Shown piece by piece: positions 1,645 to 63,712 of a stretch of 64,000 bases of DNA; positions within the stretch are counted from its first letter, which is position 1, and each line of letters begins with the position of its first letter. The notes below the pieces were generated by a model. It did no database searches and was not told the origin of the DNA. It saw nothing but the letters and a program-made list of their open reading frames with translations. This DNA comes from Dokdonia sp. Hel_I_53 (GTDB lineage: Bacteria > Bacteroidota > Bacteroidia > Flavobacteriales > Flavobacteriaceae): the NCBI RefSeq assembly GCF_007827465.1, contig NZ_VISL01000001.1, positions 5,001 through 69,000 on the forward strand. Reading direction: 5' to 3'. The position numbers were made by a program, and so were the translations under genes.

Positions 1645-1660
1645 TTTTCGCGAAAGCGTA
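1645..1660. repeat. TTCGCGAA palindrome, one-armed copy
   Basis: TTTTCGCGAAAGCGTA. The right arm is intact and the left arm is replaced by T-rich sequence. It lies between the divergent murQ and coiled-coil/zapA genes, about 90 bp before the latter's start. Confidence 0.75.
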
Positions 1661-1748
1661 CCCCATCTTGTAAATTTTAACCTATAAGCATTGTCTGTCT
1701 ATCTTTCAAATGTTAACTTTGTGTAACGTAGTTAATGCATATGTGTTT

Positions 1749-2039
1749 ATGAGTACTCTTTCTAATGTTGTTGATTCTCTTGAATATCGAATCGCTGCTT
1801 TGTTAGAAAAATACGAAGATGTGAGGCAAACGCGGGTAGCTCTAGAAAAACAGCTTACCGCACTGCAACAAGAAAATAAGCAACTTAAAGATGCTATTGA
1901 TATTTGCGAGCAGAAGAATAGAACACTCAAAACAGCAAATGCATTACTAGGCAGTAACGAATATAAAAGGGAAACTAAGCTAAAGATTAACGCTTTAGTA
2001 CGTGAGATAGATGCGTGCATAGCATCTCTCGCGGAATAA
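1749..2039 (+). CDS. Small coiled-coil protein upstream of ZapA (ZapB-like candidate)
   Basis: A 96-residue protein from the ATG at 1749 (MSTLSNVVDSLEYRI...). The frame opens at 1710, but the upstream residues are not coiled-coil-like. From about residue 8 to 70 the sequence is a heptad-rich, charged coiled coil (EKQLTALQQENKQLKDAI). It ends 6 bp before zapA, so the pair is an operon. Databases often give homologues in this slot spurious tRNA-synthetase names; nothing here supports that. A role as a ZapA partner, analogous to the coiled-coil ZapB, is inference from shape and position only. Confidence 0.75.
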   Translation: MSTLSNVVDSLEYRIAALLEKYEDVRQTRVALEKQLTALQQENKQLKDAIDICEQKNRTLKTANALLGSNEYKRETKLKINALVREIDACIASLAE

Positions 2040-2045
2040 AACCAT

Positions 2046-2336
2046 ATGGCAGATAAGCTCAAAATTAAGTTGTCTATTGCAGATCGAGTGTACCCACTTA
2101 CTATCGATCCAGCTCAAGAAGAAGGGTTGCGTAAAGCGGCCAAAGATATTGAGGCGATGGTTAAGCAATTTGAACAAAATTATGCCGTTAGAGATAAGCA
2201 AGATGTTTTAGCCATGTGCGCTTTACAGTTTGCTTCTAAGGTTACCCAAAAAACTATAAATGAAGATTCTTTGAGTGAGGAAACTGCAGCAAGATTAGAA
2301 AAGCTTGCGTTACTTCTCGATGAGACATTAACATAG
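2046..2336 (+). CDS. zapA: Cell division protein ZapA
   Basis: A 96-residue cytoplasmic protein of ZapA length that would bind FtsZ and bundle filaments at the Z-ring. The N-terminal part (KIKLSIADRVYPLTIDPAQEEGLRKAAKDIE) is the ZapA globular head with its conserved R-x-Y-P-L and E-x-x-L-R-x-A-A-x-x-I pattern. The C-terminal half is a long helix for dimer or tetramer formation, containing the typical DVLAMCALQFA stretch. It follows the coiled-coil gene by 6 bp and precedes the 6S RNA and rny, an arrangement common in Flavobacteriia. Confidence 0.92.
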   Translation: MADKLKIKLSIADRVYPLTIDPAQEEGLRKAAKDIEAMVKQFEQNYAVRDKQDVLAMCALQFASKVTQKTINEDSLSEETAARLEKLALLLDETLT

Positions 2337-2361
2337 TCGTTCTTTACATACAACAGCATAT

Positions 2362-2546
2362 TACTGCCTGCATTGGTTATTTTTTTGATAAACTCAACAG
2401 TTATTTTTTATAAAGAGTGACTCTAAATTGTAAAAACACGCCGTTACTAGACTAGTGCTAGGTAGATGGAAGTTTGATCAGTTTTCTAGCTCTAATCCTT
2501 ACTATTAGGAGTTTATACAAAATGCACTACTAATGCAGGCTTTTTT
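2362..2546 (+). ncRNA. ssrS: 6S RNA (6S-Flavo type)
   Basis: About 180 nt between zapA and rny. The two ends pair over 12 bp: GCCTGCATTGGT (2366-2377) with ACTAATGCAGGC (2529-2540), with one G-U pair and no mismatch. A T-run starts at 2541, so the 3' arm also forms the terminator. The long closing stem, the length near 180 nt and the location beside zapA are all as expected for 6S RNA, which binds the sigma-loaded RNA polymerase as a promoter mimic in stationary phase. Rfam has a dedicated 6S-Flavo family. I did not fold the interior in full, and the 5' end is approximate. Confidence 0.8.
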
Positions 2547-2636
2547 ATATCTCATCGTGAGGTATAATATATAGGGCAAAGCCCACACAAACTAATTAAA
2601 CAGATCGCCTATAGGCATCTTAAAATAAAGATTTTT

Positions 2637-4208: not shown

Positions 4209-4224
4209 CGCTTTCGCGAAAGCG
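4209..4224. repeat. TTCGCGAA palindrome, 16-bp perfect copy
   Basis: CGCTTTCGCGAAAGCG, 7 bp after the rny stop codon and 15 bp before the rny terminator stem. Confidence 0.85.
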
Positions 4225-5835: not shown

Positions 5836-5853
5836 ACGCTTTCGCGAAAGCGT
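5836..5853. repeat. TTCGCGAA palindrome, 18-bp perfect copy
   Basis: ACGCTTTCGCGAAAGCGT, between the stop codon of the minus-strand lipoprotein gene (5862) and its terminator. Confidence 0.85.
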
Positions 5854-7393: not shown

Positions 7394-7407
7394 GCTTTCG
7401 CGAAAGC
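7394..7407. repeat. TTCGCGAA palindrome, 14-bp perfect copy
   Basis: GCTTTCGCGAAAGC in the divergent region between msrB and glgA, about 110 bp upstream of glgA. Confidence 0.8.
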
Positions 7408-10224: not shown

Positions 10225-12140
10225 TGAGCACGGTTCTAGCACACAGTTTATTTTCAGAATTTGATATAAATCTTTTTAAGGCTGGTAAACATTACCGTTT
10301 ACATGATAAAATGGGTAGTCATTTGCTTACACTCGATGGGGTGGAGGGAACATATTTTGCTGTATGGGCCCCTAGCGCACGGCTAGTTTCAGTTGTAGGG
10401 GATTTTAATTTCTGGAAAGACGGGGAATATTCATTACATGTGAGATGGGATGAAAGTGGCATTTGGGAAGGGTTTATTCCAAACATAGGTCATGGTGAAG
10501 TGTACAAATACAAAATTCATTCTAATCACAATGGAGTCATTACAGAAAAAGCAGATCCTTTTGCTCGAAGAGCAGAGCATCCACCACAAACTGCCTCTGT
10601 AGTATATAAATTTAATCACACTTGGGAAGATGGTGAGTGGATGAGAAAGCGTCACAAACATAATCACCTCAATGCTCCATTTTCTGTATATGAAGTTCAC
10701 CTTGCATCTTGGCGTCGTAAAGAAGATGAGGGGAATCGAAGTTTAAGTTATTTAGAACTAGCAACAGAGCTTGTATCTTATGTTAAAGAGATGAATTTTA
10801 CACATGTAGAATTTATGCCTGTTATGGAATATCCTTACAGCCCTAGCTGGGGGTATCAAATAACTGGGTACTTTGCCCCAACAGCTCGTTTTGGATATCC
10901 AGAAGAGCTCATGACATTAATTGAAGCTTTACACAAGAACGATATAGGTGTAATCTTAGATTGGGTGCCATCTCATTTTCCAGAAGATGCACACGGTTTA
11001 GGCAGCTTTGACGGAACAGCGTGCTATGAACACCCAAACAGGCAAAAAGGATATCATCCAGATTGGAAGTCACTTATTTTTAATTATGAACGCAATGAGG
11101 TACGAAGTTTTTTAATAAGTAATGCACTTTTCTGGCTTGAGCACTATCACGTTGATGGTTTGAGGGTAGATGCTGTCGCATCCATGTTGTACTTAGATTA
11201 TAGTAGAGAAGATGGAGAATGGGAGCCAAACAGAAATGGAGGTAGAGAAAATCTTGAGGTCATTACATTTTTAAAAGAGCTCAATCAAGAGGTTTATTCG
11301 AGCTTTCCAGATGTACAAACCATTGCAGAGGAGTCTACAAGTTTCCCAATGGTTAGTAAACCTGTTTTTTCTGGCGGATTAGGCTTTGGAATGAAATGGA
11401 TGATGGGATGGATGCACGATACCCTAACATATTTCAAAAGAGACACCATTCATAGAAACCACCACCATAATGAAATTTCTTTCTCAATGACCTATGCATT
11501 TACAGAAAACTTCATGTTACCACTATCGCATGACGAGGTTGTTTATGAAAAGCAATCAATATTAGGTCGTATGCCTGGAGATGAATGGCAACGATTTGCA
11601 AACCTACGGTTACTATATACTTATATGTACACACATCCAGGAACAAAGCTCTTATTTATGGGTAGTGAATTTGGTCAGGGTACAGAATGGAATTTTGAAG
11701 AACAGTTAGATTGGTATGTACTAAAATATCAATTCCATAAAGGAATCCATCGAGCTTTTAAAGAGATAAATAAGCTATATGTTGATACCCCAGCATTTTA
11801 TGAAAAGCAATTTGATTCAGAGGGTTTTGAATGGATTGCCCACGATGATGATGAGAATAGTGTGCTAAGCTACATTCGGAAAGATAATAATACCCATGAA
11901 GTTTCAATATGCGTATTTAATATGACACCAACCCCTCAATCAAATTATAGAATAGGAATACCATTTGAAGGACGCTTTCGCGAAATTTTTAACAGCGACG
12001 CAACAGAATACGGTGGGACGGGTGAATACCATAACAGAATTCTGAAAATTAGTACAGAATCATGGCACGGAAAGCCATATTCTACGTACATAGATATTCC
12101 TCCACTTGCGGGTGTAGTTTTCGAACTTATTAAAAATTAA
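10224..12140 (+). CDS. glgB: 1,4-alpha-glucan branching enzyme (GH13)
   Basis: Introduces alpha-1,6 branches into glycogen. The 638 residues are shorter than the E. coli enzyme and appear to lack its extra N-terminal module. The order is CBM48-like domain (YFAVWAPSARLVSVVGDFNFW, about 45-65), then the GH13 barrel. In the barrel are DWVPSHF, the nucleophile in DGLRVDAVA (Asp316), the acid in IAEEST (Glu369 or Glu370) and LSHDEVVYEK. A palindrome copy falls inside the gene at 11972-11985, encoding part of GRFREIFNSD. That segment aligns with GRWREVLNTD of ordinary branching enzymes, so nothing has been inserted. Confidence 0.95.
   Translation: MSTVLAHSLFSEFDINLFKAGKHYRLHDKMGSHLLTLDGVEGTYFAVWAPSARLVSVVGDFNFWKDGEYSLHVRWDESGIWEGFIPNIGHGEVYKYKIHSNHNGVITEKADPFARRAEHPPQTASVVYKFNHTWEDGEWMRKRHKHNHLNAPFSVYEVHLASWRRKEDEGNRSLSYLELATELVSYVKEMNFTHVEFMPVMEYPYSPSWGYQITGYFAPTARFGYPEELMTLIEALHKNDIGVILDWVPSHFPEDAHGLGSFDGTACYEHPNRQKGYHPDWKSLIFNYERNEVRSFLISNALFWLEHYHVDGLRVDAVASMLYLDYSREDGEWEPNRNGGRENLEVITFLKELNQEVYSSFPDVQTIAEESTSFPMVSKPVFSGGLGFGMKWMMGWMHDTLTYFKRDTIHRNHHHNEISFSMTYAFTENFMLPLSHDEVVYEKQSILGRMPGDEWQRFANLRLLYTYMYTHPGTKLLFMGSEFGQGTEWNFEEQLDWYVLKYQFHKGIHRAFKEINKLYVDTPAFYEKQFDSEGFEWIAHDDDENSVLSYIRKDNNTHEVSICVFNMTPTPQSNYRIGIPFEGRFREIFNSDATEYGGTGEYHNRILKISTESWHGKPYSTYIDIPPLAGVVFELIKN
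11972..11985. repeat. TTCGCGAA palindrome, partial copy inside glgB
   Basis: ACGCTTTCGCGAAA within the glgB coding sequence, read as GRFREI. The left arm is full and the right arm stops at GAAA. Confidence 0.75.
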
Positions 12141-17168: not shown

Positions 17169-17183
17169 CGCTTTCGCGAAAGC
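17169..17183. repeat. TTCGCGAA palindrome, 15-bp copy
   Basis: CGCTTTCGCGAAAGC, 5 bp after the MFS stop and 22 bp before the mscL start. Confidence 0.85.
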
Positions 17184-17794: not shown

Positions 17795-18631
17795 ATGAAA
17801 AAAATAACTATAAGAACAATCATTCTAACCTTGCTAATACTAGCAACATTAAGTGTTAGTGCACAAAGAGAAAAAATAAAAGGAAGTCGAAATGTTAAAG
17901 AGCTGTCAGAACCACTTAGACCATTTACTGATATAAAAGTAATAGACGGCTTAGAAGTAACCCTTATACAAGATGCAACTACTGGCTATGACCTCGAGAT
18001 GGATGATAATCTTCTAGAAATAATAAGTTTTGATATACGCGACAGCACCTTGCTTGTTTCTACTCGAAAGGATATAAGAAGTAGTAAGAAGCTTAATATT
18101 ATTGTTCGGTTTGAAGAATTAAATAGTGTAACAGTTGCTGCGTACAGTAAAGTAATTTCAAAATCTACAATTAATACAGAGGATTTTGCTTGTAATCTTA
18201 CATCAGATAGTGTTTTTGAGGGGGAGATAAAATCAGAAAATGCAGTCATAACTGCAGATGAAAGCTCGAAGGTTGATGTAGAATTTAAGGGAGACGAAAT
18301 TAGATTTAATTTGAAAAATAACGCTTTCGCGAAAGCTGATATCAACACAGAAAAATTTGTAGTTATGGCCTCTGGCCGCACAGACATGAATTTTAAAGGT
18401 AATGCAGAAGAAGCTACAATTACCTTAACAGACAACGCAGAATTTAAGGGCCGTGCATTCGCGGTAGATCAAGCATCTTTAGTCTTAAAAGACGACACAA
18501 ATGCGCTTATCTCTATTGATAAAGACCTTGTTTTAGATATGAATCATAAAAGTGAGCTAGAGCTTTACGGAAGCCCATCTATTGTCATAGAAAAACTAGC
18601 TGGCAACTCAAAAATTTTAAAGAAAGAATAA
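17795..18631 (+). CDS. Exported GIN-domain (DUF2807) protein
   Basis: A 278-residue secreted or periplasmic protein with an SPI signal (about residues 1-23, ending SVSAQ). The mature part starts with the DUF2807 pattern LRPFTDIKVIDGLEVTLIQ and continues as a regular succession of short beta-strands, as in the putative auto-transporter adhesin head (GIN) family, predicted to form a beta-helix. A palindrome copy at 18322-18336 is read as NAFAKAD. It faces a second GIN-type gene (18694-19419) convergently across a shared terminator; the two are distant paralogues. Function unknown. Confidence 0.8.
   Translation: MKKITIRTIILTLLILATLSVSAQREKIKGSRNVKELSEPLRPFTDIKVIDGLEVTLIQDATTGYDLEMDDNLLEIISFDIRDSTLLVSTRKDIRSSKKLNIIVRFEELNSVTVAAYSKVISKSTINTEDFACNLTSDSVFEGEIKSENAVITADESSKVDVEFKGDEIRFNLKNNAFAKADINTEKFVVMASGRTDMNFKGNAEEATITLTDNAEFKGRAFAVDQASLVLKDDTNALISIDKDLVLDMNHKSELELYGSPSIVIEKLAGNSKILKKE
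18322..18336. repeat. TTCGCGAA palindrome, 15-bp copy inside a GIN-domain gene
   Basis: CGCTTTCGCGAAAGC inside the coding sequence at 17795-18631, read as AFAKA. It falls in a low-complexity beta-strand region. Confidence 0.85.
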
Positions 18632-24658: not shown

Positions 24659-24677
24659 ACGCTTTCGCGAAAGCGTA
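24659..24677. repeat. TTCGCGAA palindrome, 18-bp core copy
   Basis: ACGCTTTCGCGAAAGCGT plus A, 14 bp after the lon stop and 13 bp before the lon terminator. Confidence 0.85.
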
Positions 24678-27307: not shown

Positions 27308-27321
27308 GCTTTCGCGAAAGC
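27308..27321. repeat. TTCGCGAA palindrome, 14-bp copy
   Basis: GCTTTCGCGAAAGC between the convergent DUF4345 gene and the small secreted protein gene, 10 bp from the latter's terminator. Confidence 0.8.
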
Positions 27322-30106: not shown

Positions 30107-30122
30107 GCTTTCGCGAAAGCGT
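30107..30122. repeat. TTCGCGAA palindrome, copy between speA and speB
   Basis: GCTTTCGCGAAAGCGT, 46 bp past the speA stop and 47 bp before the speB start on the minus strand. Confidence 0.85.
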
Positions 30123-35842: not shown

Positions 35843-35863
35843 ATGTGTTTGTATTCCTATTGT

Positions 35864-35880
35864 TTTTCGCGAAAGCGAAA
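35864..35880. repeat. TTCGCGAA palindrome, one-armed copy before yebC
   Basis: TTTTCGCGAAAGCGAAA, 21 bp upstream of the yebC start codon, so probably within or at the edge of its 5' leader or promoter. Confidence 0.75.
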
Positions 35881-37082: not shown

Positions 37083-37098
37083 GCTTTCGCGAAAGCGT
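37083..37098. repeat. TTCGCGAA palindrome in the rpsA leader
   Basis: GCTTTCGCGAAAGCGT, 59 bp before the rpsA start and downstream of its promoter, so it is transcribed and would fold as an RNA hairpin. Confidence 0.85.
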
Positions 37099-39083: not shown

Positions 39084-39110
39084 CCTCTCAGTAAACTGAG
39101 AGGTTTTTTA
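39084..39110 (+). terminator. rpsA terminator
   Basis: CCTCTCAG/CTGAGAGG (8 bp, loop TAAA) plus a T-run. The sequence is almost identical to the terminator after the next gene (39794-39826). Confidence 0.9.
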
Positions 39111-39204
39111 TTTAATTTTCCCAACTAAATATTAAATTAATTTTCTATTTTCGTGTAGCCTTGATTAAAATTAACAAGGTGCTAACTAATTTTAAATTAA
39201 AATT

Positions 39205-39771: not shown

Positions 39772-39793
39772 TCTCATACTTTATCATATTATG

Positions 39794-39826
39794 AAACCTC
39801 TCAGGAAACTGGGAGGTTTTTTTTTA
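39794..39826 (+). terminator. Terminator after the beta-barrel gene
   Basis: AAACCTCTCAG with CTGGGAGGTTT (11 bp, one wobble, loop GAAA), then eight or more T. Confidence 0.9.
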
Positions 39827-39858
39827 CGCTATCGTTAATAATGTAAAACTTATATTTT

Positions 39859-40283
39859 ATGCAAAATACTTTTTTAATGTTAGTATTTATTAGTTTAGGT
39901 TTAAACCAGATCATAGCATAAGAGTCTGCTACACCCAAAGGGAATTGGATAGTAGAGTCTGGAATAGGAACTAGTATTATAGGTAATGCAAATACTTCAA
40001 TAGTATTTGCTTCTAACAATGGCAATAGCTCGTTTGCTATAGGTGGCGAAGCTGGATATTTTATTAATAATTTAGAATTAAAAGCCTGAATTTCATATGA
40101 GAGTGAAGGAAGCTATGTGAATTGGAAAGCTGGTACTAAATATTATATTTCAAGTAAATTCCCAGTGCAATTAGACTTAAATGGATCGTTAGACAGTTTT
40201 TTACCATCAGTTATGTAGGGCTTCAAGGAGTGTACAGCCTAGAATTAGGTATATTTTCTGGGGAAGAATATAGGGGTAAGTGA
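39859..40283 (+). pseudogene. Decayed outer-membrane protein gene
   Basis: A frame from ATG 39859 encodes a signal peptide (MQNTFLMLVFISLGLNQIIA) and a barrel-like protein (GNWIVESGIGTSI...FAIGGEAGYFINNLELKA). It is broken by TAA at 39919-39921 (CAA expected after the signal peptide), TGA at 40087-40089 (GGA expected) and TAG at 40216-40218. Near the last stop the frame shifts by one and continues as VGLQGVYSLELGIFSGEEY to a TGA at 40281. The copy lacks a C-terminal end. Four lesions make recent sequencing error unlikely. It resembles the neighbouring barrel gene in type, not closely in sequence. Confidence 0.78.
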
Positions 40284-40455
40284 CAATTATAATTACATAT
40301 GTTGCAACAGTAGCATCTTCCTTATTCTGATAATTTCAAAATTTGAAAGGCCTTTTAAATTTTATTTTAAAAGAATCCTTAAATTTTATTATGTGAGAAC
40401 TATAAGTTGATAAATGTGTTATAGTTAAAAGTAGATTTTGTTTTGGGAAGCAAAA

Positions 40456-42294: not shown

Positions 42295-42420
42295 CTATTT
42301 TTTGATACAATTAATTTAATTTGAAAGATGTACCTCTAAAATTTGTGAAGATAATTATTTCTGAATATTTATCTTTTTGAAAAATGATTAAGTTTAAATT
42401 AAAAAATACAAGTATAATAT

Positions 42421-42428
42421 TATATTTG
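42421..42428 (+). promoter_or_regulatory. -7 promoter element of the propeller lipoprotein gene
   Basis: TATATTTG matches TAnnTTTG 26 bp before the ATG at 42455. No good TTTG box is found at the right distance. Confidence 0.4.
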
Positions 42429-42454
42429 TTTATTAATCTAACAATATATATAAA

Positions 42455-43591: not shown

Positions 43592-43613
43592 ATAATATTT
43601 TAAATAAGTAATT

Positions 43614-43651
43614 AAGGGGGGGGGAGGAATACTTAGCTCCCCCTTTTTTTC
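43614..43651. terminator. Terminator between propeller and Stealth genes
   Basis: A G-run (nine G) with GGGGAGG pairs with CTCCCC beyond a short loop, then a T-run. Poly-G tracts of this length are prone to slippage. Confidence 0.7.
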
Positions 43652-43666
43652 TATAAATATATAAGA

Positions 43667-44608
43667 TTATATTCGAGTCCTTTCCTCAAGCCAAGAAAGA
43701 AAAAAATTCATTTTACTAAAAGAACTACGATCTAAACTTTGAAGACCTAAGAATAATTTATTAGTTTCTTTATTTTTCAATTTAAATCTGTACCACCAAA
43801 GTGGCTTTTTAAAAGATCTGAAATAAAGAAGCCTTAAATCGTTTTCAAATTCACAACTATTATTAATTATTTCTAAATGATTTGATAAACCTTGAGCAAG
43901 GTATTGGTTACCATTCCTGAACCTATATTTTATATTATTTATAAAATGTTCATGATTCTCATTATAGAAATTTTCAAGTGTTGATTTTCTGAGGGGATGT
44001 GGGGTATGTCTAAAATTATAATATTCATTCAAACCAACAATTTTGGCAGATTTTTGTTGAGCTGACTTATGACCAATACGTTTTTTTTTAAATTTTTTAA
44101 AGAATTTTTTTTCTGGAAAACTAAGCCATTTACCTCTCAACACAGGAAAACCATTTTTAAAAAAATCTTGCCCCACAGTTTTGTTAATTAAGAAAAAATC
44201 ATCATTAAAATAAATAAAATGTTCTGAAAGAGTAGGAATTCGATGGATACAGGTTTCTATAGATCTACTGTTGAAAGTGGGCAGAAATTTTTCGTATCCT
44301 TTGAATATTACTTTATGGTCTATGATTTGTACATTATTGTACTTATTAATTTCACCAGAATGATTTAAAAAAGAAGGTTTTTGGTTATCTGTTACTATAA
44401 AAATCTTTCTAATGTAAGGAGCAAATTTTAAAATTGAATTTACCGTATACTCAATCTCATTTACTTGATCATATCTTGTACGCACACTTTCATCTTCAAT
44501 ATTCTTATCTAAAGGAAGAAAGGGTCTCATTTTGTCTTTATGATTCATATCAGACCCATCCACCCATAGAATGACAGCATCAATTTCAATTCCCTTAGTT
44601 TCAATCAT
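43667..44608 (-). CDS. Stealth-family sugar phosphotransferase
   Basis: A 313-residue protein that, by family, transfers a hexose-1-phosphate from a nucleotide sugar to a glycan, making phosphodiester-linked polymers. Region CR1 is IDAVILWVDGSD (residues 9-20). CR2 runs from RYDQVNEIEYTVNSILKFAPYIRKIFIVTDNQ through HRIPTLSEHFIYFNDDFFL (about 45-140). The later conserved regions are not obvious, as in short members. Low GC, with several A/T homopolymers (KKKR, KKFKKKR). It lies in a minus-strand set with the TupA-like and QueC-like genes. Function fits capsule or exopolysaccharide synthesis. Confidence 0.88.
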   Translation of the reverse strand: MIETKGIEIDAVILWVDGSDMNHKDKMRPFLPLDKNIEDESVRTRYDQVNEIEYTVNSILKFAPYIRKIFIVTDNQKPSFLNHSGEINKYNNVQIIDHKVIFKGYEKFLPTFNSRSIETCIHRIPTLSEHFIYFNDDFFLINKTVGQDFFKNGFPVLRGKWLSFPEKKFFKKFKKKRIGHKSAQQKSAKIVGLNEYYNFRHTPHPLRKSTLENFYNENHEHFINNIKYRFRNGNQYLAQGLSNHLEIINNSCEFENDLRLLYFRSFKKPLWWYRFKLKNKETNKLFLGLQSLDRSSFSKMNFFLSWLEERTRI

Positions 44609-44643
44609 AAATATTCATTCTAGTGTTATATAAAACCTTCTAC

Positions 44644-45582
44644 TCAAGGAAAATTCGTAATGACTCGCTCATTGCTATCAAGAGATGGAAGTTTAAAATA
44701 ATTGCCGATGATTTCATTGTACTTTTTTGGGTAAAATTCTTTACGAGCATCTGAAGGGTAAAATGTCATTTCACCAAATACCGTCCTTCCGTTAACTGAA
44801 TAAAGATCAACTCTTACAAAAGGAAAATTTTCAGAAAGTTTTTTTGAAACTTCAATCATTTCTTTAAGATTTGTAGGCTTCATAATACCTTCTGATATAC
44901 TTTTATAATTTAAGCTCTTTCCAAATGGTAGTAAATTAAATTCTAGATCAAAACATCCTTGTTTATGATCCTCCTCCCTGTCAATGTGGACGTCAATAAA
45001 TTTAGGAACACCATCAAAACAATAGAATTTATAGTCAACGAGTGTATTTTTATCTTCTTCCTTTAAGAATTTCTCGACTACTAACCTAGGTTGCACATCC
45101 TTATAAGCCCATTCTTGACCCATTCGATAATATTGGTTTTTTTTAAGCCATTTATTAAGAAGTGGTATTACTTTTTTAAATTCTAATTGTGATTTGTCTT
45201 TTACTATTAAATTATAGCTACTCGTATGTGTGGCTTTAATCACAAATTTATTAGGTAAATCATCAAATGGAATGTCTTTACCATCAGTATACACTCCAAT
45301 TAATTCATTCAAGTAAGAGGCTCCTATCTTATCTTCCACATAAGCTCTTACAGCATATTTATCCACCAATTGATTTAAAATTTTAGGACGAAAAAATACT
45401 TTATACCATTCAATTTTTGCATTGAATTCCATCGGATTTTTTAAATCTAATTTTTTACCTGAGAAATACTCATAGTGATAATGAACGTAGTGTTTTGATG
45501 GCAAGAAGCGCATTTTTCTCAAAGTACGTAACCCAAATCGCCGCAATTTATTTTGCATCTTAGTTAATATTAATTGAAGCAT
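44644..45582 (-). CDS. TupA-like ATP-grasp protein
   Basis: A 312-residue protein of the TupA-like ATP-grasp family, found in polysaccharide gene clusters and thought to join an amino acid or similar acid to a sugar or glycan. Seen are the N-terminal KNPMEFNAKIEWYK, the ATP-grasp segments KFVIKATHTSSYN and RLVVEKFL, VDYKFYCFDGVPKFIDVH, and the metal-binding end FPFVRVDLYSVNGRTVFGEMTFYPSD. This pattern is typical of TupA-like enzymes. It sits 35 bp upstream of the Stealth gene and 35 bp after the QueC-like gene. The substrate is unknown. Confidence 0.85.
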   Translation of the reverse strand: MLQLILTKMQNKLRRFGLRTLRKMRFLPSKHYVHYHYEYFSGKKLDLKNPMEFNAKIEWYKVFFRPKILNQLVDKYAVRAYVEDKIGASYLNELIGVYTDGKDIPFDDLPNKFVIKATHTSSYNLIVKDKSQLEFKKVIPLLNKWLKKNQYYRMGQEWAYKDVQPRLVVEKFLKEEDKNTLVDYKFYCFDGVPKFIDVHIDREEDHKQGCFDLEFNLLPFGKSLNYKSISEGIMKPTNLKEMIEVSKKLSENFPFVRVDLYSVNGRTVFGEMTFYPSDARKEFYPKKYNEIIGNYFKLPSLDSNERVITNFP

Positions 45583-45617
45583 TATGTAATCATAATGTTT
45601 ATGTTATATACATGAAT

Positions 45618-46295
45618 TTATAAATTTACTTGATCAATCCTATATCCAAACCCATCTCTCCTGTATTGTTTGCAAGGGCTGCACTCTCCACAAGCTTTAG
45701 ATCCCGATCTATGGCAAAACCAAGTTTGCTCCATCAAATTTGAGAAGTTATAATCCTCAGCAATTTTTTTCATTTCAGGCTTAGAAATATTTACTATTGG
45801 AAATGTCATATTTCCAAATAGAAGTTTTCTAAAAATATCAACTTTTTTTTTGTTAATGACCCAATTTTCGCCAGATGCTCCTTGATTTATTACTATTAGC
45901 TCATCTAAATTGAAAAAACGATATAAGTCACCTTTGTGAATTGAAAGTTCAAGACGATTATATTTTTTAGCTAGAAAAGCGAGCCAATAATATTGCTTAC
46001 CAAGATTTTTTCTTTTTCTTAAAATATTATATGCAAATTTTAATCTAAAATTAGAAGGTATTTTTTTTCTCTCATAAATTATTAATGGTAAAATACTCCC
46101 TTTAGAGGTAGAAAAATGATCTTGTATAGAAGAAGTTAGAGATTGTATGGTTTCAAATTCACGTTGAGTAGATTTTCTATTGTGATCTCTTACGTATATA
46201 GGTTGTATAGTACAATTATTCCGATAGAGTTGAATTACTCTAAAGGTAGAGTCCCAACCACTAGTCCATAAAACATTATGTACAGAATTAGACAT
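45618..46295 (-). CDS. QueC-like PP-loop ATPase in a glycan cluster
   Basis: A 225-residue protein with the PP-loop nucleotide-binding motif near the N terminus in an altered form, LWTSGWDSTF (residues 9-18), where standard QueC has SGGxDS. The C-terminal zinc cluster is Cys194, Cys202, Cys205, Cys208 (CHRSGSKACGECSPC), as in QueC. The middle is more basic and divergent than in queuosine enzymes. No other queuosine gene (queD, queE, queF) is nearby; all neighbours are glycan genes. An adenylating role on a sugar or acid substrate is inferred. It could also be an unlinked 7-deazapurine enzyme. Confidence 0.75.
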   Translation of the reverse strand: MSNSVHNVLWTSGWDSTFRVIQLYRNNCTIQPIYVRDHNRKSTQREFETIQSLTSSIQDHFSTSKGSILPLIIYERKKIPSNFRLKFAYNILRKRKNLGKQYYWLAFLAKKYNRLELSIHKGDLYRFFNLDELIVINQGASGENWVINKKKVDIFRKLLFGNMTFPIVNISKPEMKKIAEDYNFSNLMEQTWFCHRSGSKACGECSPCKQYRRDGFGYRIDQVNL

Positions 46296-46335
46296 ATATT
46301 GAAAATCTTATAATAATTTAATAAAAGAAATTTTT

Positions 46336-47151
46336 TTAAACCGCCACATCATATTCCCTCAAAGCATCATTAAGCGAAGTCTTTCTATTTGTGCTTGCTT
46401 TACGTTTTCCGATGATTAATGCGCAGGGAACTTGATACTCTCCTGCAGCAAATTTCTTAGTGTAACTACCAGGTATTACTACAGATCTAGCAGGAACGCG
46501 GCCTTTTGTTTCTACAGGCTCATCTCCTGTAACATCTATTATTTTTGTACTCATAGTTAGCACGACATTTGCGCCTAAAACGGCCTCTTTCTCAATATGT
46601 ACACCTTCTACAACAATACATCTCGAACCTATAAAAGCACCATCCTCAATAATTACTGGGGCAGCTTGCAATGGTTCCAAAACACCTCCTATACCTACAC
46701 CGCCACTTAAATGTACATCTTTCCCTATTTGAGCACAGCTACCTACAGTAGCCCAAGTGTCAACCATCGTACCTTCATCTACGTAAGCGCCTATGTTTAC
46801 ATAACTAGGCATTAAAATAACTCCACTAGAAATATAAGAGCCATGTCTTGCCACTGCATTAGGAACAACTCTAATTCCGCGATTTGCAAAGTCTTTTTTT
46901 AACGGAATCTTATCGTGATACTCAAAAATACCTGCTTCAAGCGTTTCCATCTTTTGGATTGGAAAATATAAAACCACAGCTTTTTTGATCCATTCATTTA
47001 CTTGCCAGCCATCATTAGTAGGCTCTGCGACACGCAAAGTACCACGATCTAACATATCTACTACTTCTCTTATCGCACTTATTGTAACTCTATTGGATAA
47101 TTGAGATCTGTCATCCCAAGCTTCCTCAATGATATTTTGTAGTTGTGTCAT
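46336..47151 (-). CDS. dapD: Tetrahydrodipicolinate N-succinyltransferase
   Basis: Succinylates tetrahydrodipicolinate from succinyl-CoA in the lysine and diaminopimelate pathway. The 271 residues have an N-terminal helical domain and a left-handed beta-helix of hexapeptide repeats (about 100-215). It shows FANRGIRVVPNAVARHGSYI, MPSYVNIGAYVDEGTMVDTWATVGSCAQIGKDVHLSGGVGIGGVLEP and the C-terminal RSVVIPGSYTKKF. These match DapD. It is the flank of the glycan cluster. A TAnnTTTG box lies 52 bp upstream on the minus strand. Confidence 0.96.
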   Translation of the reverse strand: MTQLQNIIEEAWDDRSQLSNRVTISAIREVVDMLDRGTLRVAEPTNDGWQVNEWIKKAVVLYFPIQKMETLEAGIFEYHDKIPLKKDFANRGIRVVPNAVARHGSYISSGVILMPSYVNIGAYVDEGTMVDTWATVGSCAQIGKDVHLSGGVGIGGVLEPLQAAPVIIEDGAFIGSRCIVVEGVHIEKEAVLGANVVLTMSTKIIDVTGDEPVETKGRVPARSVVIPGSYTKKFAAGEYQVPCALIIGKRKASTNRKTSLNDALREYDVAV

Positions 47152-47202
47152 TTAGATATAATTTAATTGAAGTCTATAACTTTAGTTTTTTACTAGGTTT
47201 CT

Positions 47203-47210
47203 CAAAGATA
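47203..47210 (-). promoter_or_regulatory. dapD -7 promoter element
   Basis: TATCTTTG on the minus strand (plus-strand CAAAGATA) matches TAnnTTTG, 52 bp before the dapD start. Confidence 0.5.
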
Positions 47211-47320
47211 AAGTAACAATTACTTTTTTTAAGTTCTATATATTCAAAAACCAGAGATTAAATTCCTTAAAACTGTTGTAGATGAACTTGTGGATAAAGA
47301 ATTCTTCAATTGTTTTTCCT

Positions 47321-47328
47321 TATTTTTG
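47321..47328 (+). promoter_or_regulatory. ruvX -7 promoter element
   Basis: TATTTTTG, a TAnnTTTG match, lies 16 bp before the ruvX ATG at 47344. The leader would be under ten bases. Confidence 0.5.
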
Positions 47329-47343
47329 CCCCAAATTAACACT

Positions 47344-47754
47344 ATGTCCCGCATTATTGCGATAGATTATGGAACTAAACGCACTGGTATTGCAGTGACA
47401 GATGAGTTGCAAATGATTGCCTCGGGACTCACTACGGTTGCAACAAAAGATTTAATGAAATTTTTGAAAGAATTTTTCAAGAATGAAAATGTTTCAACTT
47501 TGATATTAGGAGAACCCAAGCGTATGAGTGGTGAACCTTCTGAGGTGGAAAAGGATATTTTACGCTTTCGCGAAAGCGTAGAAAAAGCACATCCTAACCT
47601 AGAAATCATAAGACAAGACGAGCGTTTTACCTCAAAGATGGCCTTTCAAACTATGATTGATAGTGGACTAGGAAAGAAAAAAAGACAGAACAAAGCATTG
47701 GTTGATGAAATTAGTGCTACTATAATATTGCAGGATTACCTGTATAATAAATAA
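47344..47754 (+). CDS. ruvX: Holliday junction resolvase-like RuvX (YqgF)
   Basis: RNase H-fold nuclease implicated in pre-16S rRNA processing. The start at 47344 (MSRIIAIDYGTKRTGIAVTDEL) fits the promoter and the family; the frame opens earlier at 47290. The 136 residues contain the first acid in IAIDYGTKRTGIA, then LILGEPKRMSGEPS and QDERFTSKMA, ending VDEISATIILQDYL with the later acid. A perfect 20-bp palindrome (47561-47580) codes for LRFRESV. It is followed by def at a 2-bp distance. Confidence 0.94.
   Translation: MSRIIAIDYGTKRTGIAVTDELQMIASGLTTVATKDLMKFLKEFFKNENVSTLILGEPKRMSGEPSEVEKDILRFRESVEKAHPNLEIIRQDERFTSKMAFQTMIDSGLGKKKRQNKALVDEISATIILQDYLYNK
47561..47580. repeat. TTCGCGAA palindrome, perfect 20-bp copy inside ruvX
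   Basis: TACGCTTTCGCGAAAGCGTA is identical on both strands over all 20 bases and lies wholly within ruvX. Confidence 0.9.
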
Positions 47755-48914: not shown

Positions 48915-48931
48915 ACGCTTTCGCGAAAGCG
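48915..48931. repeat. TTCGCGAA palindrome, 16-bp core copy before mazG
   Basis: ACGCTTTCGCGAAAGCG, 17 bp after the DUF5606 terminator and 31 bp before the mazG start. Confidence 0.85.
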
Positions 48932-50037: not shown

Positions 50038-51339
50038 TTGAGAAGAACAATTCACAGTCACTCCGTATCAGATATTGATGTCTTAAAAAGCAAGCTATTG
50101 CATTGGGCACAACAATATGACGAGGTAGTTTGGCTAGATAGTAATGAGTATGAGCATCAAAATTATCCTCAATATCAGGCAATACTAGCGGTAGATGCTT
50201 TTACTAGCCTTAAGACAGATTACACAAATGCTTTTGATCAGCTAGAAGAATATCAGAATGGATTGAATGATTGGATTTTTGGTTACTTAAGTTATGACCT
50301 TAAAAATGATACAGAGCGTCTGGTATCAAAAAATGATGACCGACTACATTTTGCAGACCTCCACTTTTTTCAACCTAAAAAGTTATTTCTTATTCAGAAC
50401 AATACCTTAGAGATGCATTATTTGTCTATGATAGATGATGAACTCACTGAAGATTATAATGAGATACTCAATCAAACAGAGCAACCAATTTCAAAATACA
50501 CAACTGACTTACAGATTAATGCAAAAATTCATAAAAAGGCTTATATTGAAAAAGTTAGTGATCTCTTAGCACATATAGGGCGTGGAGATATTTATGAAGC
50601 AAATTTTTGTCAAGAATTTTTTGCAACTGGTCTCATAGATCCCTTAGATATTTACAAAAGACTTAATGACATTAGTACTCCACCATTTGCGACGTTTTTA
50701 AAACTAGATGAGCAGTATTGTCTTTCGGCGAGCCCAGAGCGATATTTGCATAAAGAAGGGAAGAAGGTAATAAGTCAGCCCATTAAAGGGACAGCACCTC
50801 GAGGTAGCAGTGAGGAGGAGGATACCGCTTTCGCGAAAGCGTTATCACAAGACCCAAAAGAGCAGTCTGAAAATGTGATGATTGTAGATTTGGTACGTAA
50901 TGACTTGTCGAGAACGGCAATGAAAGGATCTGTTCAGGTAGAAGAATATTGCAAGGTGTATCCCTTCAAACAGTTACATCAGATGATCTCTACCATTACG
51001 GCAACCATTTCTGAAATTGTATCTCCTGTAGATGTGATTAGGTCTACGTACCCTATGGGAAGTATGACAGGAGCGCCTAAAATTATGGCGATGAAACTTA
51101 TCGAATCCCTAGAGGAGTCAAAGCGAGGCTTGTATAGCGGGAGTGTGGGATATTTTACACCAGATGGGAATTTTGACTTTAACGTAGTGATCCGAAGTAT
51201 TCTCTATAATGCCGAAAAGGAGTATATTTCTTATTCGGTAGGTGGCGCAATCACTGCGGGCTCAGATCCAGAAAAAGAATATGAAGAATGTCTACTCAAG
51301 GCAAAAGCAATGCGCGCTGTATTGGAGGGAAAATCGTAA
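50038..51339 (+). CDS. pabB: Aminodeoxychorismate synthase component I (PabB-like)
   Basis: Makes 4-amino-4-deoxychorismate from chorismate for folate synthesis. The 433 residues begin at a TTG codon (MRRTIHSHSVSDI), supported by a promoter box 21 bp upstream. Chorismate-binding motifs are in order: GRGDIYEANFCQEF, PIKGTAPRG, ENVMIVDLVRNDLSRTA, STYPMGSMTGAPK, GLYSGSVGYF and the C-terminal SVGGAITAGSDPEKEYEE. It could be an anthranilate synthase subunit, but the PIKGTAPRG lysine (PIKGT) is the PabB-type nucleophile. The pabA partner is not adjacent. A palindrome (50826-50841) is read as TAFAKAL inside the gene. Confidence 0.92.
   Translation: MRRTIHSHSVSDIDVLKSKLLHWAQQYDEVVWLDSNEYEHQNYPQYQAILAVDAFTSLKTDYTNAFDQLEEYQNGLNDWIFGYLSYDLKNDTERLVSKNDDRLHFADLHFFQPKKLFLIQNNTLEMHYLSMIDDELTEDYNEILNQTEQPISKYTTDLQINAKIHKKAYIEKVSDLLAHIGRGDIYEANFCQEFFATGLIDPLDIYKRLNDISTPPFATFLKLDEQYCLSASPERYLHKEGKKVISQPIKGTAPRGSSEEEDTAFAKALSQDPKEQSENVMIVDLVRNDLSRTAMKGSVQVEEYCKVYPFKQLHQMISTITATISEIVSPVDVIRSTYPMGSMTGAPKIMAMKLIESLEESKRGLYSGSVGYFTPDGNFDFNVVIRSILYNAEKEYISYSVGGAITAGSDPEKEYEECLLKAKAMRAVLEGKS
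50826..50841. repeat. TTCGCGAA palindrome, 16-bp perfect copy inside pabB
   Basis: CGCTTTCGCGAAAGCG within the pabB coding sequence. It lies in a variable linker just after PIKGTAPRG, where other PabB proteins have comparable length, so no insertion is implied. Confidence 0.85.
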
Positions 51340-51476: not shown

Positions 51477-51493
51477 TTTTTTCGCGAAAGCGT
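51477..51493. repeat. TTCGCGAA palindrome, one-armed copy before ettA
   Basis: TTTTTTCGCGAAAGCGT, with a T-tract in place of the left arm; 30 bp before the ettA start. Confidence 0.75.
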
Positions 51494-53358: not shown

Positions 53359-53460
53359 AGGTAATTGATTATTAGTTATATATATCAGATACGTCACTCT
53401 TTAAAAGGTTGCGTAAATTCTTACATTTTTTTAATAAATATTATAACTATTCATTTACAA

Positions 53461-53474
53461 GTTCGCGAAAGCGT
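53461..53474. repeat. TTCGCGAA palindrome, one-armed copy
   Basis: GTTCGCGAAAGCGT, right arm only; about 120 bp before the gene at 53592. Confidence 0.7.
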
Positions 53475-59123: not shown

Positions 59124-59859
59124 ATACGGACTTATAGGTAAGGATATTGGATATTCTTTTTCAAGAGGATATTTTAAAAATAAATTTGGGTCAGAACAAA
59201 TTAATGCAGTTTATTTTAATTTTGATGCATCTACTCTTGAAGATGTAAAGCAATACTTAGATAATACTCTTGTAAAAGGGTACAATGTTACAATTCCTTA
59301 TAAAGAGAAAATAATTCCTTTATTAGACGGGCTAGATGATAACGCTTCACAAATAGGTGCTGTAAACACCATAAAAAGAGAGGTTGATGGTAGGTTGATA
59401 GGTTATAATACAGATTTTATAGGATTTAGAGATTCGCTGCTACCTTATTTAAATAATATAGACCCACATGATCAAGACTTTAAAGCAATCATTTTGGGTA
59501 CTGGCGGCGCCTCAAAAGGAGTTAGCTATGCTTTACAGCTCTTAGGAATTAAATGTCAATTTGTTTCGCGAAAGCGAACTAAAGAAAACCTTACATATGA
59601 GGACTTAACTCAAGAAGTGATCCTTGACCATAAATTTATAATTAATACAACACCAGTAGGCACGTTTCCTAATGTGGAGGCTTTTCCCAATATTCCTTAT
59701 AATTTTTTAAAGGAATATCACGTAGTTTATGATCTGATATATAATCCTCCACTAACTGCTTTCTTAGGATTTGCTAAGGATCGAGGAGCTACTATCATAA
59801 ATGGTTTAAAAATGCTAGAATTACAGGCAAAGGCCTCTTGGTCTTTATGGAATGACTAG
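59095..59859 (+). CDS. aroE: Shikimate dehydrogenase
   Basis: Reduces 3-dehydroshikimate with NADPH in the aromatic pathway. The 254 residues show the substrate motifs GYSFSRGYFKNKF (a variant of the usual S-x-S-H), NVTIPYKEKI with the catalytic lysine, GAVNTI and NTDFIGF. The NADP fold GTGGASKGVSYAL and the C-terminal NGLKMLELQA are present. A palindrome half (59564-59577) is read as FVSRKRTKEN inside the nucleotide-binding domain. It starts 29 bp inside the upstream DUF368 gene and is likely in the same operon. Confidence 0.95.
   Translation: MEKEQKQKDKYGLIGKDIGYSFSRGYFKNKFGSEQINAVYFNFDASTLEDVKQYLDNTLVKGYNVTIPYKEKIIPLLDGLDDNASQIGAVNTIKREVDGRLIGYNTDFIGFRDSLLPYLNNIDPHDQDFKAIILGTGGASKGVSYALQLLGIKCQFVSRKRTKENLTYEDLTQEVILDHKFIINTTPVGTFPNVEAFPNIPYNFLKEYHVVYDLIYNPPLTAFLGFAKDRGATIINGLKMLELQAKASWSLWND
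59564..59577. repeat. TTCGCGAA palindrome, right-arm copy inside aroE
   Basis: TTTCGCGAAAGCGA within aroE, read as FVSRKR. This is the NADP-binding arginine loop (basic residues after the strand), where RKR is functionally sensible. Confidence 0.7.
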
Positions 59860-62217: not shown

Positions 62218-62237
62218 TACGCTTTCGCGAAAGCGTA
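62218..62237. repeat. TTCGCGAA palindrome, perfect 20-bp copy
   Basis: TACGCTTTCGCGAAAGCGTA, 12 bp after the small membrane protein stop and 9 bp before its terminator. Confidence 0.9.
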
Positions 62238-62245
62238 AAAAACAC

Positions 62246-62281
62246 AAAATCCGCATCTAAAATCAGATAGCGGATTTTGCT
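62246..62281 (+). terminator. Terminator after the small membrane protein gene
   Basis: CAAAATCCGC with GCGGATTTTG, inner ATCT/AGAT; a T-rich stretch follows within the stem's right arm. Confidence 0.75.
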
Positions 62282-62350
62282 CTTTCATAGCAGAAATTTT
62301 GTCTATCATTGTGATACAAATGATATTAGACAATGGTATAGTCGTTATTT

Positions 62351-62380
62351 TTTGGAAAATCTTACAATGTGCTATCTTTG
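62351..62380 (+). promoter_or_regulatory. Promoter of the histidine phosphatase gene
   Basis: TTTG (62351-62354), 18-bp spacer, TATCTTTG (62373-62380): a perfect match to the Bacteroidota consensus. The transcript would start near 62387, about 13 bases before the ATG. Confidence 0.75.
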
Positions 62381-62399
62381 AAAGATAAAATTGCTGAAT

Positions 62400-62930
62400 A
62401 TGAAGAAGTGTATGTTATTAGTTTTTCTTGCGGTGGTGTCTATTAATTGTGACGGACAAAAGAAAAACACCGAACCACAATTAGACAAAAAAAGAGTGGT
62501 AACTACTTACTATTTTATACGCCATGCAGAGAAAGATCTAAGTAATCCATCAAGTCACGATCCTGAGCTCACTAAAGAGGGCAAACAACGGGCAGAGGAA
62601 TGGAAGGCTTTTTTTAAGAATAAGGGTATTGATGCTGTATATAGTACAGACTTTAAACGCACTATGAGCACTGCACAGCCTACAGCGATAGCAAATGGTA
62701 TTTCCATTAAGACCTATGATCCAGCTAATCTTTATTCTTCAGATTTTGAGGAGGAAACAAAAGGTAAGAATGTAGTAGTTGTAGGTCACAGCAACACTAC
62801 CGCTCAATTTGCAAATGCAATCCTAGAACGCAAAGAAGCTCCGGAAATCGATGAATCTGATTATGGTAATCTATATATAGTGACTAAAACGAATGACAAA
62901 ATTACTTTCTCAAAAAAACATTTCAATTAA
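62400..62930 (+). CDS. Exported histidine phosphatase (SixA/phosphoglycerate-mutase family)
   Basis: 176 residues from ATG 62400 (MKKCMLLVFLAVVSINCDGQ); the frame opens at TTG 62391. The signal sequence has NCDG, possibly a lipobox (Cys near 17), so it is exported and probably lipid-anchored. The catalytic RHAEK comes near residue 43, then TDFKRTMSTAQPTA with the conserved arginine and VVVGHSNTT with the second histidine. Such proteins remove phosphate from small molecules or phosphohistidine. Convergent with the DUF6503 gene (4-bp overlap). Confidence 0.88.
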   Translation: MKKCMLLVFLAVVSINCDGQKKNTEPQLDKKRVVTTYYFIRHAEKDLSNPSSHDPELTKEGKQRAEEWKAFFKNKGIDAVYSTDFKRTMSTAQPTAIANGISIKTYDPANLYSSDFEEETKGKNVVVVGHSNTTAQFANAILERKEAPEIDESDYGNLYIVTKTNDKITFSKKHFN

Positions 62931-63712
62931 CACTCTGGGCAAAGAGTAACCGTAATATTTTTAAGCTCGATTTTTGAAAGAAGATCGAGTTTTTTACTTT
63001 CAAAAAGGGAATCTAAGCTTTCAAGTGGAGGGTACTGTGTTTTTGGTTTAAAATTATTGTAATCGACAAAACGTATTCCGTTAAAAAAACGCTCGTTGTA
63101 GGCCTCTCTAAAACGTGTCCCACCTTCATTTACCTGATAATTATAAGCTAAGTAGTCTACATGATACGTATGTTTGTGTATCCAGTACATGTACTCGTCT
63201 TCAAAATCAACTCCGCCACCTTCCTGTGAAAATGTAACCTTAATACGGTAATAAGGCTCACCTTTTATGATACTTGGGCTTATGAGTGTTTTTTGGACTG
63301 CAGGATCATTCAATCCATAAGGAAGCACAGAGAAATAATGAACTGAGTTTATACTATTAGAATAGCTTTTCAAAGTACTATCTGGAATGTTGAGTGGTAC
63401 GCTTTCGCGAAAGCGTACAAACTTACCGTCTTTTTTTATAATATCCTGTTGTACTAAGCATTCCTTATCTGTACAACGCTCAAGAGTTCGTATTCCATTT
63501 GCACGCGTTGCTGTATAATAATAGTCACGAAATTTGAAATGAATTTTTGAATTAGAAATAATATCACCACCCGCAGCTACTATAGCTTTATCAACAATAT
63601 CTTGTGCTGTAAAAGATTCTTTAGTACAACTTTGTAGCAGTAATAAAATACAAAAGAGGAGCTGCTGCTGAGTTATACGGTATGTAGAAGGTTTGCTATT
63701 ATTTTGTATCAA
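62927..63712 (-). CDS. DUF6503 family lipoprotein
   Basis: A 261-residue lipoprotein (signal [12 protein letters not shown], Cys at about 29). The mature part begins with [34 protein letters not shown] and continues as a beta-rich LolA/outer-membrane-lipoprotein-like fold ([43 protein letters not shown]). It ends in CPEC. This matches flavobacterial DUF6503 proteins as I know them. A 22-bp palindrome (63397-63418) lies in the coding sequence and is read on the minus strand as [11 protein letters not shown]. Function unknown; lipid-binding fold is inference. Confidence 0.82.
63397..63418. repeat. TTCGCGAA palindrome, perfect 22-bp copy in the DUF6503 gene
   Basis: The longest copy: the 20-bp form flanked by G and C, so GTAC at both ends. 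It is inside the DUF6503 coding sequence. Confidence 0.9.

Follow-up and report, generated by a model that had tools for sequence, protein, structure and literature searches.

The chromosome of Dokdonia sp. Hel_I_53 carries hundreds of mostly letter-perfect copies of a palindrome, rather evenly spread along much of its length, which suggests that a putative protein reads the palindrome in order to manage or recognise the chromosome. In the window (the whole stretch of 64,000 nt analysed here) the 8-mer TTCGCGAA occurs 20 times (Table 1), against a mean of 0.58 and a maximum of 3 in 100 dinucleotide shuffles. The first-pass annotation had put the chance expectation at about one, and all 20 of its sites are real, with the 8-mer itself starting 1–7 bp to the right of the feature starts that it listed. 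Across the 2.93 Mb genome there are 838 copies, or about one per 3.5 kb, compared to 85 for the backwards control, and the 14-mer GCTTTCGCGAAAGC is found 700 times, its backwards control never. The copies are thus neither near expectation in number nor confined to the window, the two outcomes that had been named as arguing against the palindrome, and its over-representation is confirmed as real and genome-wide. A literature search at the level of titles and abstract openings found nothing on this palindrome in Dokdonia or Flavobacteriaceae.

Table 1. The 20 elements of the window, given as the coordinates of the 14-bp core (a dot marks elements with no strand assigned).
Position	Strand	Element	Context
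1644..1657	+	one-armed, right outer arm intact	divergent spacer (gene caller)
4210..4223	.	full 14-bp core, 16-bp palindrome	centre 14 bp past RNase Y stop
5838..5851	.	full core, 18-bp palindrome	tandem spacer
7394..7407	.	full core	divergent spacer upstream of glgA; kept in 3/12 orthologous spacers
11974..11987	-	one-armed	within glgB, frame RFRE; present in 2/12 orthologues
17170..17183	.	full core	spacer; kept (0–1 mismatch) at 10/10 orthologous loci, representing 8 genomes
18323..18336	.	full core	within DUF2807 gene (AFAKA); in 9/10 loci, protein identity at least 45%
24661..24674	.	full core, 18-bp palindrome	between lon stop and terminator-like hairpin with T run
27308..27321	.	full core	convergent spacer
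30107..30120	.	full core	tandem spacer
35863..35876	+	one-armed	
37083..37096	.	full core	upstream of S1-domain protein gene
47564..47577	.	full core, 20-bp palindrome	within small ORF (RFRES)
48917..48930	.	full core	tandem spacer
50827..50840	.	full core	within ORF (AFAKA)
51478..51491	+	one-armed	immediately upstream of ettA
53459..53472	+	one-armed	downstream of ettA
59562..59575	+	one-armed	within shikimate-dehydrogenase-like gene, frame VSRKR
62221..62234	.	full core, 20-bp palindrome	tandem spacer
63401..63414	.	full core, 22-bp palindrome	within DUF6503 gene (RFRES)

The iterated palindrome first described is part of something larger, a palindrome of 14–20 bp with arms. The whole element is dyad-symmetric and spans about 50 bp, with the core GCTTTCGCGAAAGC, the best form TACGCTTTCGCGAAAGCGTA and arms reaching to about ±25 bp. 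Perfect palindromes in the window range from 8 to 22 bp, and the long ones reported earlier are present (22 bp at 63404, with GTAC ends; 20 bp at 47567 and 62224). The full 14-mer is found at 14 of the 20 window sites, and the other six retain one outer arm. At positions 11–25 the arms, read on the outward strand, have a G frequency of about 0.07 compared to about 0.23 for C. These G-poor outward arms are seen in every gene context, in other Dokdonia and in genus g11.

Comparison of the copies shows sequence, and not structure, to be what stays fixed in the palindrome. Within 464 kb there are 169 perfect 14-bp palindromes, of which 110 are this single word and the remaining 59 are each different; none of them is a compensated (base-paired) variant. 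In 874 kb of the Hel_I_53 genome, GCTTTCGCGAAAGC has 198 perfect and 28 one-mismatch copies, and 17 of the 28 deviate in the outer two positions. The element tolerates the loss of one outer arm: among the 248 TTCGCGAA in these 874 kb, 198 have both outer arms, 44 have one and six have neither. The element accounts for the excess of the 8-mer, because only these six copies lack both arms, compared to 6.8 expected from a trinucleotide model. Outside the element TCGCGA shows no enrichment, with 41 occurrences compared to an expectation of 55.7 for TCGCGA overall.

For the first 100 sites of the chromosome (0–340 kb) the coefficient of variation (CV) of the spacing is 0.52, and none of the 99 gaps is shorter than 500 bp, against 13.5 expected. 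This CV is lower than in any of the 5,000 simulations that keep neighbours 650 bp apart and, when the exclusion is 1,000 bp, lower than in all but nine. From 340 to 670 kb the CV is 0.81, with three of 82 gaps under 500 bp, and the regularity is that of simple exclusion and no more. Two g11 genomes have CVs of 0.44 and 0.32 (80 kb each), and four other Dokdonia are moderately evenly spaced. In G266, from a third genus, the CV is 0.93 from 17 gaps, the arms are weaker, and the spacing does not go beyond simple exclusion. Segments of 20 kb in Hel_I_53 have between 1 and 8 sites. No origin–terminus gradient is visible by eye, and therefore no macrodomain pattern backs an organising role.

All 17 of the Dokdonia genomes searched carry 369–905 copies and two further genera of Flavobacteriaceae carry 408–664, while the remaining Bacteroidota genomes searched have at most 19 each, some of them clustered and island-like. 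On an EttA tree the three element-rich genera are not a single clade. At the lon loci of Algibacter, Tamlana, Winogradskyella, Aquimarina, Christiangramia and others, other palindromes show small excesses only; Dokdonia sets of comparable size hold 56–67 copies of the 12-mer. Viral contigs bearing the element also exist. The viral records were collected via the motif itself, and the sample is of motif-bearing ones among the matches listed; of these, five of the 17 counted whole hold 5–8 TTCGCGAA in 27–40 kb. Genes of portal, terminase, head and tail families lie at some of the loci with the motif, and Winogradskyella phage Peternella_1, a terminase relative of one such locus, has no copies.

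The element occurs in spacers and, within genes, in all three reading frames. Among 242 elements, 97 are in called genes and 28 in divergent spacers, and positions directly past stop codons are frequent. Elements are often conserved at the DNA level between species, and single sites may be missing in some. In the DUF2807 gene, where mean DNA identity is 70%, the codons GCT TTC GCG AAA are identical in eight of the nine alignment rows used, and variability returns just outside the 14-mer; one row is without the site, and for this reason the site window comes only eighth in a ranking of the 5-codon windows of this best conserved gene. Presence or absence within genes arises by substitution. The copies in glgA, glgB and the DUF2807 gene have no indel across the aligned stretches, and the in-gene copy L034:1171 has a one-residue gap adjoining. 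An inserted mobile unit is rejected on in-gene copies that are mostly free of indels. The first-pass annotation saw nothing mobile attached, which fits the insert-free in-gene copies and the absence of a RAYT from Hel_I_53; some clusters in other genera are island-like, and viral contigs bear copies. It is worth adding that a site lies 64–65 bp past ettA in Dokdonia and g11 alike; the flanks are dissimilar by eye, and the shared position is treated as coincidence.

We tentatively read the element as a double-stranded DNA site for a putative dimeric, sequence-specific protein acting chromosome-wide, an interpretation drawn from sequence that we judge to fall just short of probable. The protein would bind the element as double-stranded DNA, each subunit reading half of the core with one outer arm dispensable, and contacts to the flanking arms would be strand-specific. 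With one site occupied every few kilobases most of the benefit would be gained, and we propose that the spacing is therefore kept more regular than random at least over parts of the genome. The task is likely to be chromosome-scale, namely nucleoid organisation, maintenance or self-recognition, and the phages and islands that bear sites are presumably exposed to this protein now or were so in the past. A comparison of shared high-identity genes between Hel_I_53 (874 kb) and g11 (240 kb) or G266 (80 kb) gave no candidate reader protein.

The main rival to a chromosome-scale protein site is a DNA-uptake signal, which we consider unlikely on balance; both are among the four roles offered in the first-pass annotation. 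Competent cells would favour DNA bearing the element, and biased uptake with recombination would spread it by molecular drive; as a fragment would need no more than a single site for uptake, even spacing would follow. Like the USS and DUS of Pasteurellaceae and Neisseriaceae, the element has hundreds of copies, is partly evenly spaced, and lies both in coding DNA and between genes. The USS, too, has a core plus a flanking preference. For the Haemophilus USS, PMC1939737 cites Karlin's significant even spacing, and its discussion calls this less even than compaction sites would be. Self-DNA preference is described within the same family, in Riemerella columbina, where competition with donor DNA is seen for DNA of the species itself but not for an equal dose of foreign DNA; its top k-mers are A-rich words and not the Dokdonia palindrome (PMC7965970). 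Unlike the USS and DUS, the Dokdonia element is a perfect palindrome, known uptake words being non-palindromic in the account of PMC1939737, and it has far fewer near-misses. The ratio of one-mismatch to perfect copies is 28:198, compared to 947:438 for the uptake 10-mer of A. pleuropneumoniae (PMC1939737), for word lengths of 14 and 10, and there is no broad one-mismatch excess. Phage-like contigs also bear the element, of which an uptake mark has no need. No published uptake test for Dokdonia was found among titles and abstract openings.

It is improbable that the element is a by-product of the kind proposed in Elhai's model, in which an orphan methyltransferase acting in the core and methyl-directed mismatch repair would ratchet near-sites to full sites. 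By analogy the element resembles HIP1 (GCGATCGC) of cyanobacteria, yet appears distinct from it. Like HIP1 and Elhai's alternate HIPs, TTCGCGAA and GCTTTCGCGAAAGC are palindromes grossly over-represented genome-wide, with hundreds of copies in certain lineages only; saturation at about one site per interval and deviants skewed to outer positions are likewise features of HIP words in PMC4390886. The same paper has HIP words as GC-rich, of about 5–8 bp, and HIP1 at about one per 1 kb, whereas the Dokdonia palindrome is 14–20 bp long with a fixed 14-bp core, is less dense, and has strand-biased arms to ±25 bp that a methylation ratchet leaves unexplained. A C5-methyltransferase (PF00145) is present in six of the 15 element-rich genomes and absent from nine, and on this absence and the unenriched inner TCGCGA a C5-methylase-linked HIP is rejected. 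We know of no methylase site as long as a 14-bp fixed core. Core length, the inner 6-mer and the lack of a C5 enzyme in nine genomes together weaken the methylation-target role that had been suggested earlier.

A self-identity tag, by which a defence or repair nuclease would spare DNA with an element every few kilobases while phages and islands adapt, is quite improbable. The copy-rich viral records, the structural genes at motif-bearing loci and the motif-free Peternella_1 would fit it, but host stretches of 10–21 kb without a site persist, and the viral sample consists of motif-bearing records among the matches listed.

We hold it very unlikely that the element is a site preferred by a topoisomerase or in replication, relieving torsion at regular intervals; a gyrase G-segment whose dyad is the 4-bp CGCG, or a point where lagging strands start, would be examples. 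Two-fold symmetry about a 4-bp centre, partly regular spacing and presence in viral contigs speak for such a site. However, gyrase is universal as far as is known, and of the genera searched only three have the motif in abundance; 14-bp stringency would, to our knowledge, also be unusual for a topoisomerase. The 44 one-armed copies have no clear bias to the inferred fork direction (25 against, 19 with).

There is similarly little to recommend an RNA-level element, be it a terminator, a 3'-stabilising hairpin or a REP spread by a RAYT. The element is a perfect inverted repeat, common right after stops, and REP/BIME sequences are also short dispersed palindromes, many of them intergenic. However, the arms do not pair, and there are no base-paired variants in which compensating changes keep the pairing; it is therefore not an RNA hairpin family. 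These observations, the presence of the element in divergent spacers and in every frame of genes, and the distinct terminator-like hairpin past the lon copy disfavour the mRNA-stability hairpin of the first-pass annotation. RAYT family members (PF01797) are present in four of the 15 element-rich genomes, namely all three g11 genomes tested (G027, G316 and G460) and, weakly, G011; the other 11, Hel_I_53 included, have none, and a REP with RAYT is rejected. Unlike REP/BIME, the full Dokdonia form has no head/tail asymmetry, and it has little insertion signature. A target of a ParB paralogue is also rejected: parS and Noc-binding sites are fixed palindromes of similar length read by dimers, but a ParB target has few, near-origin sites where the element has hundreds genome-wide, and Hel_I_53 has a single ParB_N match. 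All nine element-rich genomes searched have, separately from the element, pairs of parS-like sites with some 1.9 kb between them (the Hel_I_53 total of three equals its backwards control of three), which makes ParB/parS as such unlikely.

The reading as a dimeric protein site can be extended, more speculatively, to a chromosome-wide address system, which we regard as possible but far from secure. A dedicated dimeric protein would read a 50-bp element every 3–4 kb or so, its gene would have entered at least two to three Flavobacteriaceae lineages separately, sites would then have accrued by substitution, and phages and integrative elements would have adapted. Since the three element-rich genera are not one clade on the EttA tree, the reader protein should be findable by gene-content comparison. 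Highly iterated palindromes are a puzzle in cyanobacteria, where methylation blurs matters. The Dokdonia element, which is longer, sharper and partly evenly spaced and has no C5-methylase requirement, offers a clean system for the function of such words, and its in-gene copies, which alter protein sequence, and its varying presence across related genera would be useful for functional study.

The palindrome is present far beyond chance, both in the window and in the genome. The first-pass annotation counted 20 copies of the 8-mer TTCGCGAA in the window, and this count is borne out: 0.58 are expected, and the maximum of 100 shuffles is 3. When the window's 8-mers are ranked by a trinucleotide model, the nine highest all come from the palindrome word. 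The copies are not confined to the window: a whole-genome count in Dokdonia sp. Hel_I_53 (a single contig of 2.93 Mb, with the window at 5001-69000) gives 838 copies of TTCGCGAA against 85 for the backwards control, and 700 copies of the 14-mer core GCTTTCGCGAAAGC against 0. For lon, the nearest named matches are six Dokdonia records at 89–93% identity.

An 874-kb sample of this genome contains 248 copies of TTCGCGAA, where the trinucleotide model expects 6.8. Both outer GC arms are present in 198, one in 44 and neither in 6, and TCGCGA beyond the 8-mer is not enriched in this sample (41 found); the unit therefore consists of TTTCGCGAAA with one or both outer GCs. Of the 44 one-armed copies, 43 retain A as the fifth base on the broken side. 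Positions 5–7 from the centre (AGC, adjoining the 8-mer) are 0.91–0.99 fixed and GTA is preferred at positions 8–10; in g11, a second element-rich genus of Flavobacteriaceae, position 9 is a mixture of A, G and T. Further out, at positions 11–25 of the outward strand, G is at about 0.07 and C at about 0.23, a bias that fades just past 25 and is seen on both sides, whether the setting is convergent, tandem, divergent or coding. It is weak in G266, a genome of a third element-rich genus (12 sites). Pairing between the two arms of a copy is no better than between arms drawn from separate copies (132 pairs).

Among the 17 other members of the genus in a set of 118 genomes (this one included), all have high copy numbers (369–905). 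One genome of a different genus, G027 of g11, has 578, eight have 1–17 and the remainder zero. Within 397 genomes of the family, six exceed 400 copies, namely two Dokdonia (Hel_I_53 and G011), three g11 (578, 664 and 609) and G266 (408), and 73 further genomes have 1–19. Of 392 genomes sampled from the phylum, 24 have matches, none above 6 apart from Dokdonia sp. Hel_I_53. In some low-copy genomes the copies are clustered. Five genomes of five otherwise nearly element-free genera have in common two elements spaced at exactly 933 bp, and because the spacing is identical in five genera these copies look like a shared, mobile island.

Locations of the element pair with 933-bp spacing.
Feature	Location	Source
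933-bp pair	L267-L270 (G159, G168, G182, G289)	family-genome search
933-bp pair	G238:C1:311231-312177	phylum-genome search

On a tree of one gene, ettA (30 genomes, 12 of them element-rich), the element-rich genomes are not one clade. Three changes are needed, well-supported branches force two, and a single change of state occurs in 0 of 200 bootstrap trees. Separate gains or several losses are both possible. A site lies 64–65 bp after ettA, about 1753 bp from its start, in two Dokdonia (L314, L315) and three g11 (L340-L342); the flanks look unlike, and this may be coincidence.

A home-made gene caller, which called 79% of the 874 kb coding and surely missed some genes, puts 97 of 242 elements inside genes (0.14 per kb); 125 occupy classified spacers below 2 kb (tandem 1.10, convergent 1.28 and divergent 0.84 per kb), and 20 are unclassified. 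Fifty in-gene copies in a 464-kb sample use all three frames, with 27 AFAKA, 13 RFRES and 10 LSRK. Some in-gene copies place (A/S)FAKA at residues 17–25 of called genes (L010:10880, L013:14555, L014:4956, L026:7334), a position at which it might also serve as the cleavage site of a signal peptide. Downstream of lon, the element follows the stop codon and precedes a terminator-like hairpin that has a T run. G027, which is not nearest Dokdonia by lon, has a site roughly 85–90 bp past the end of its lon match (L253:4039).

The sites are partly evenly spaced. For the 100 sites of the first 340 kb, gap lengths have a CV of 0.52, with no gap below 500 bp against 13.5 expected and two below 1 kb against 25. 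A null with a 650-bp exclusion gives a CV of 0.80 and reaches the observed value in 0 of 5,000 runs; with a 1,000-bp exclusion it is reached in 9 of 5,000. Four other Dokdonia, with lists of 20–33 sites, have CVs of 0.55–0.73, which uniform simulations attain in 4 to 180 of 5,000 runs, and two g11 genomes have 0.44 and 0.32 (80 kb each). From 340 to 670 kb the CV is 0.81, 3 of 82 gaps are below 500 bp, and exclusion alone suffices; gaps here extend to 20.8 kb, in long-operon regions that, judged by gene sizes, could be polysaccharide-related clusters. The longest element-free gap of the window (10.5 kb, 37096-47564) may be a surface-polysaccharide cluster, since it holds genes for a family 2 glycosyltransferase and a TupA-like ATP-grasp protein. 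In G266 the arms are weaker and the spacing is not clearly regular (CV 0.93), and its element set may be a recent or decaying acquisition.

Individual sites turn over. Across orthologous Dokdonia loci, where aligned DNA is mostly 70–80% identical, spacers have either a site with 0–1 mismatches or usually chance-level similarity, with a few intermediates at 2–6 mismatches. The site at 17176 is kept in 10 of 10 loci (8 genomes), against 3 of 12 for the one at 7400 and 2 of 12 for the glgB site; after lon, L030 and L032 have the full site, L029 a degenerate one, and L033 and L034 none. In glgA, 11 of 12 other genomes carry a site, but the copy of the gene in the window does not. Within glgA, glgB and a DUF2807 gene, residues are replaced without indels in the stretches shown; one further in-gene case (L034:1171) has a one-residue gap adjoining the site. 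The DUF2807 alignment (9 of 13 rows, with two duplicates and two distant rows excluded) has GCT TTC GCG AAA identical, third positions included, in 8 of 9 rows, and the third base of the following codon, just outside the 14-mer, is variable. Both the DNA word and the amino acids are absent from the ninth row, and because of it the site ranks no higher than eighth in conservation among the gene's 5-codon windows.

Motif-bearing viral records, found via the motif itself, comprise at least 120 stretches, many of them single matches that may be chance. Among the matches listed, 17 viral records were counted whole, and five of these, of 27–40 kb, have 5–8 copies of TTCGCGAA each. Ten proteins encoded at six loci with the motif were scanned, and seven match portal, terminase, major head, tape-measure, Mu-type transposase or integrase families. 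By its terminase, one of these loci has Winogradskyella phage Peternella_1 as nearest named relative (55% identity), a phage with zero copies in 39.6 kb.

An uptake drive, in which the word spreads as an uptake signal, also predicts partly even spacing and turnover of sites. Rare near-misses, the palindromic word and the phage copies point away from it. The 874-kb sample has 198 perfect, 28 one-mismatch and 39 two-mismatch copies; in the table by Bakkali (PMC1939737), a 10-bp uptake word has 438 perfect and 947 one-off copies and a HIP1 word 5648 and 1830, so that the element is sharper than either by this ratio, word lengths being different. The proposed role as a methylation target is weakened for C5-methyltransferases, which 9 of 15 element-rich genomes lack. 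An identity as parS was set aside: a ParB_N match occurs in 40 of 40 genomes (two in five of them, one a Dokdonia, G010), and all nine element-rich genomes searched have parS-like pairs about 1.9 kb apart that are separate from the element. In Dokdonia sp. Hel_I_53 the pair is at 2004775 and 2006675 (3 matches, equal to the 3 of the backwards control), and GC skew is consistent with an origin nearby. RAYT is missing from 11 of 15 element-rich genomes, which sets aside a RAYT-linked repeat. An RNA hairpin, including the suggested mRNA-stability role, is disfavoured, as the palindromes are without pair-swapped relatives.

A dimeric reader that would bind the element as double-stranded DNA is suggested by its two-fold core and strand-biased flanks, by the tolerated loss of one outer arm and by its indifference to transcription; we infer this protein, as well as its function and any effect on fitness. 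Rare near-misses, a palindromic word and copies in phage-like records tip the balance towards such an intracellular reader over an uptake drive. Because spacing is partly even and individual sites turn over, the benefit of the sites would saturate per interval, as both chromosome-scale binding and an uptake drive predict, and would not lie in gene regulation at each place.
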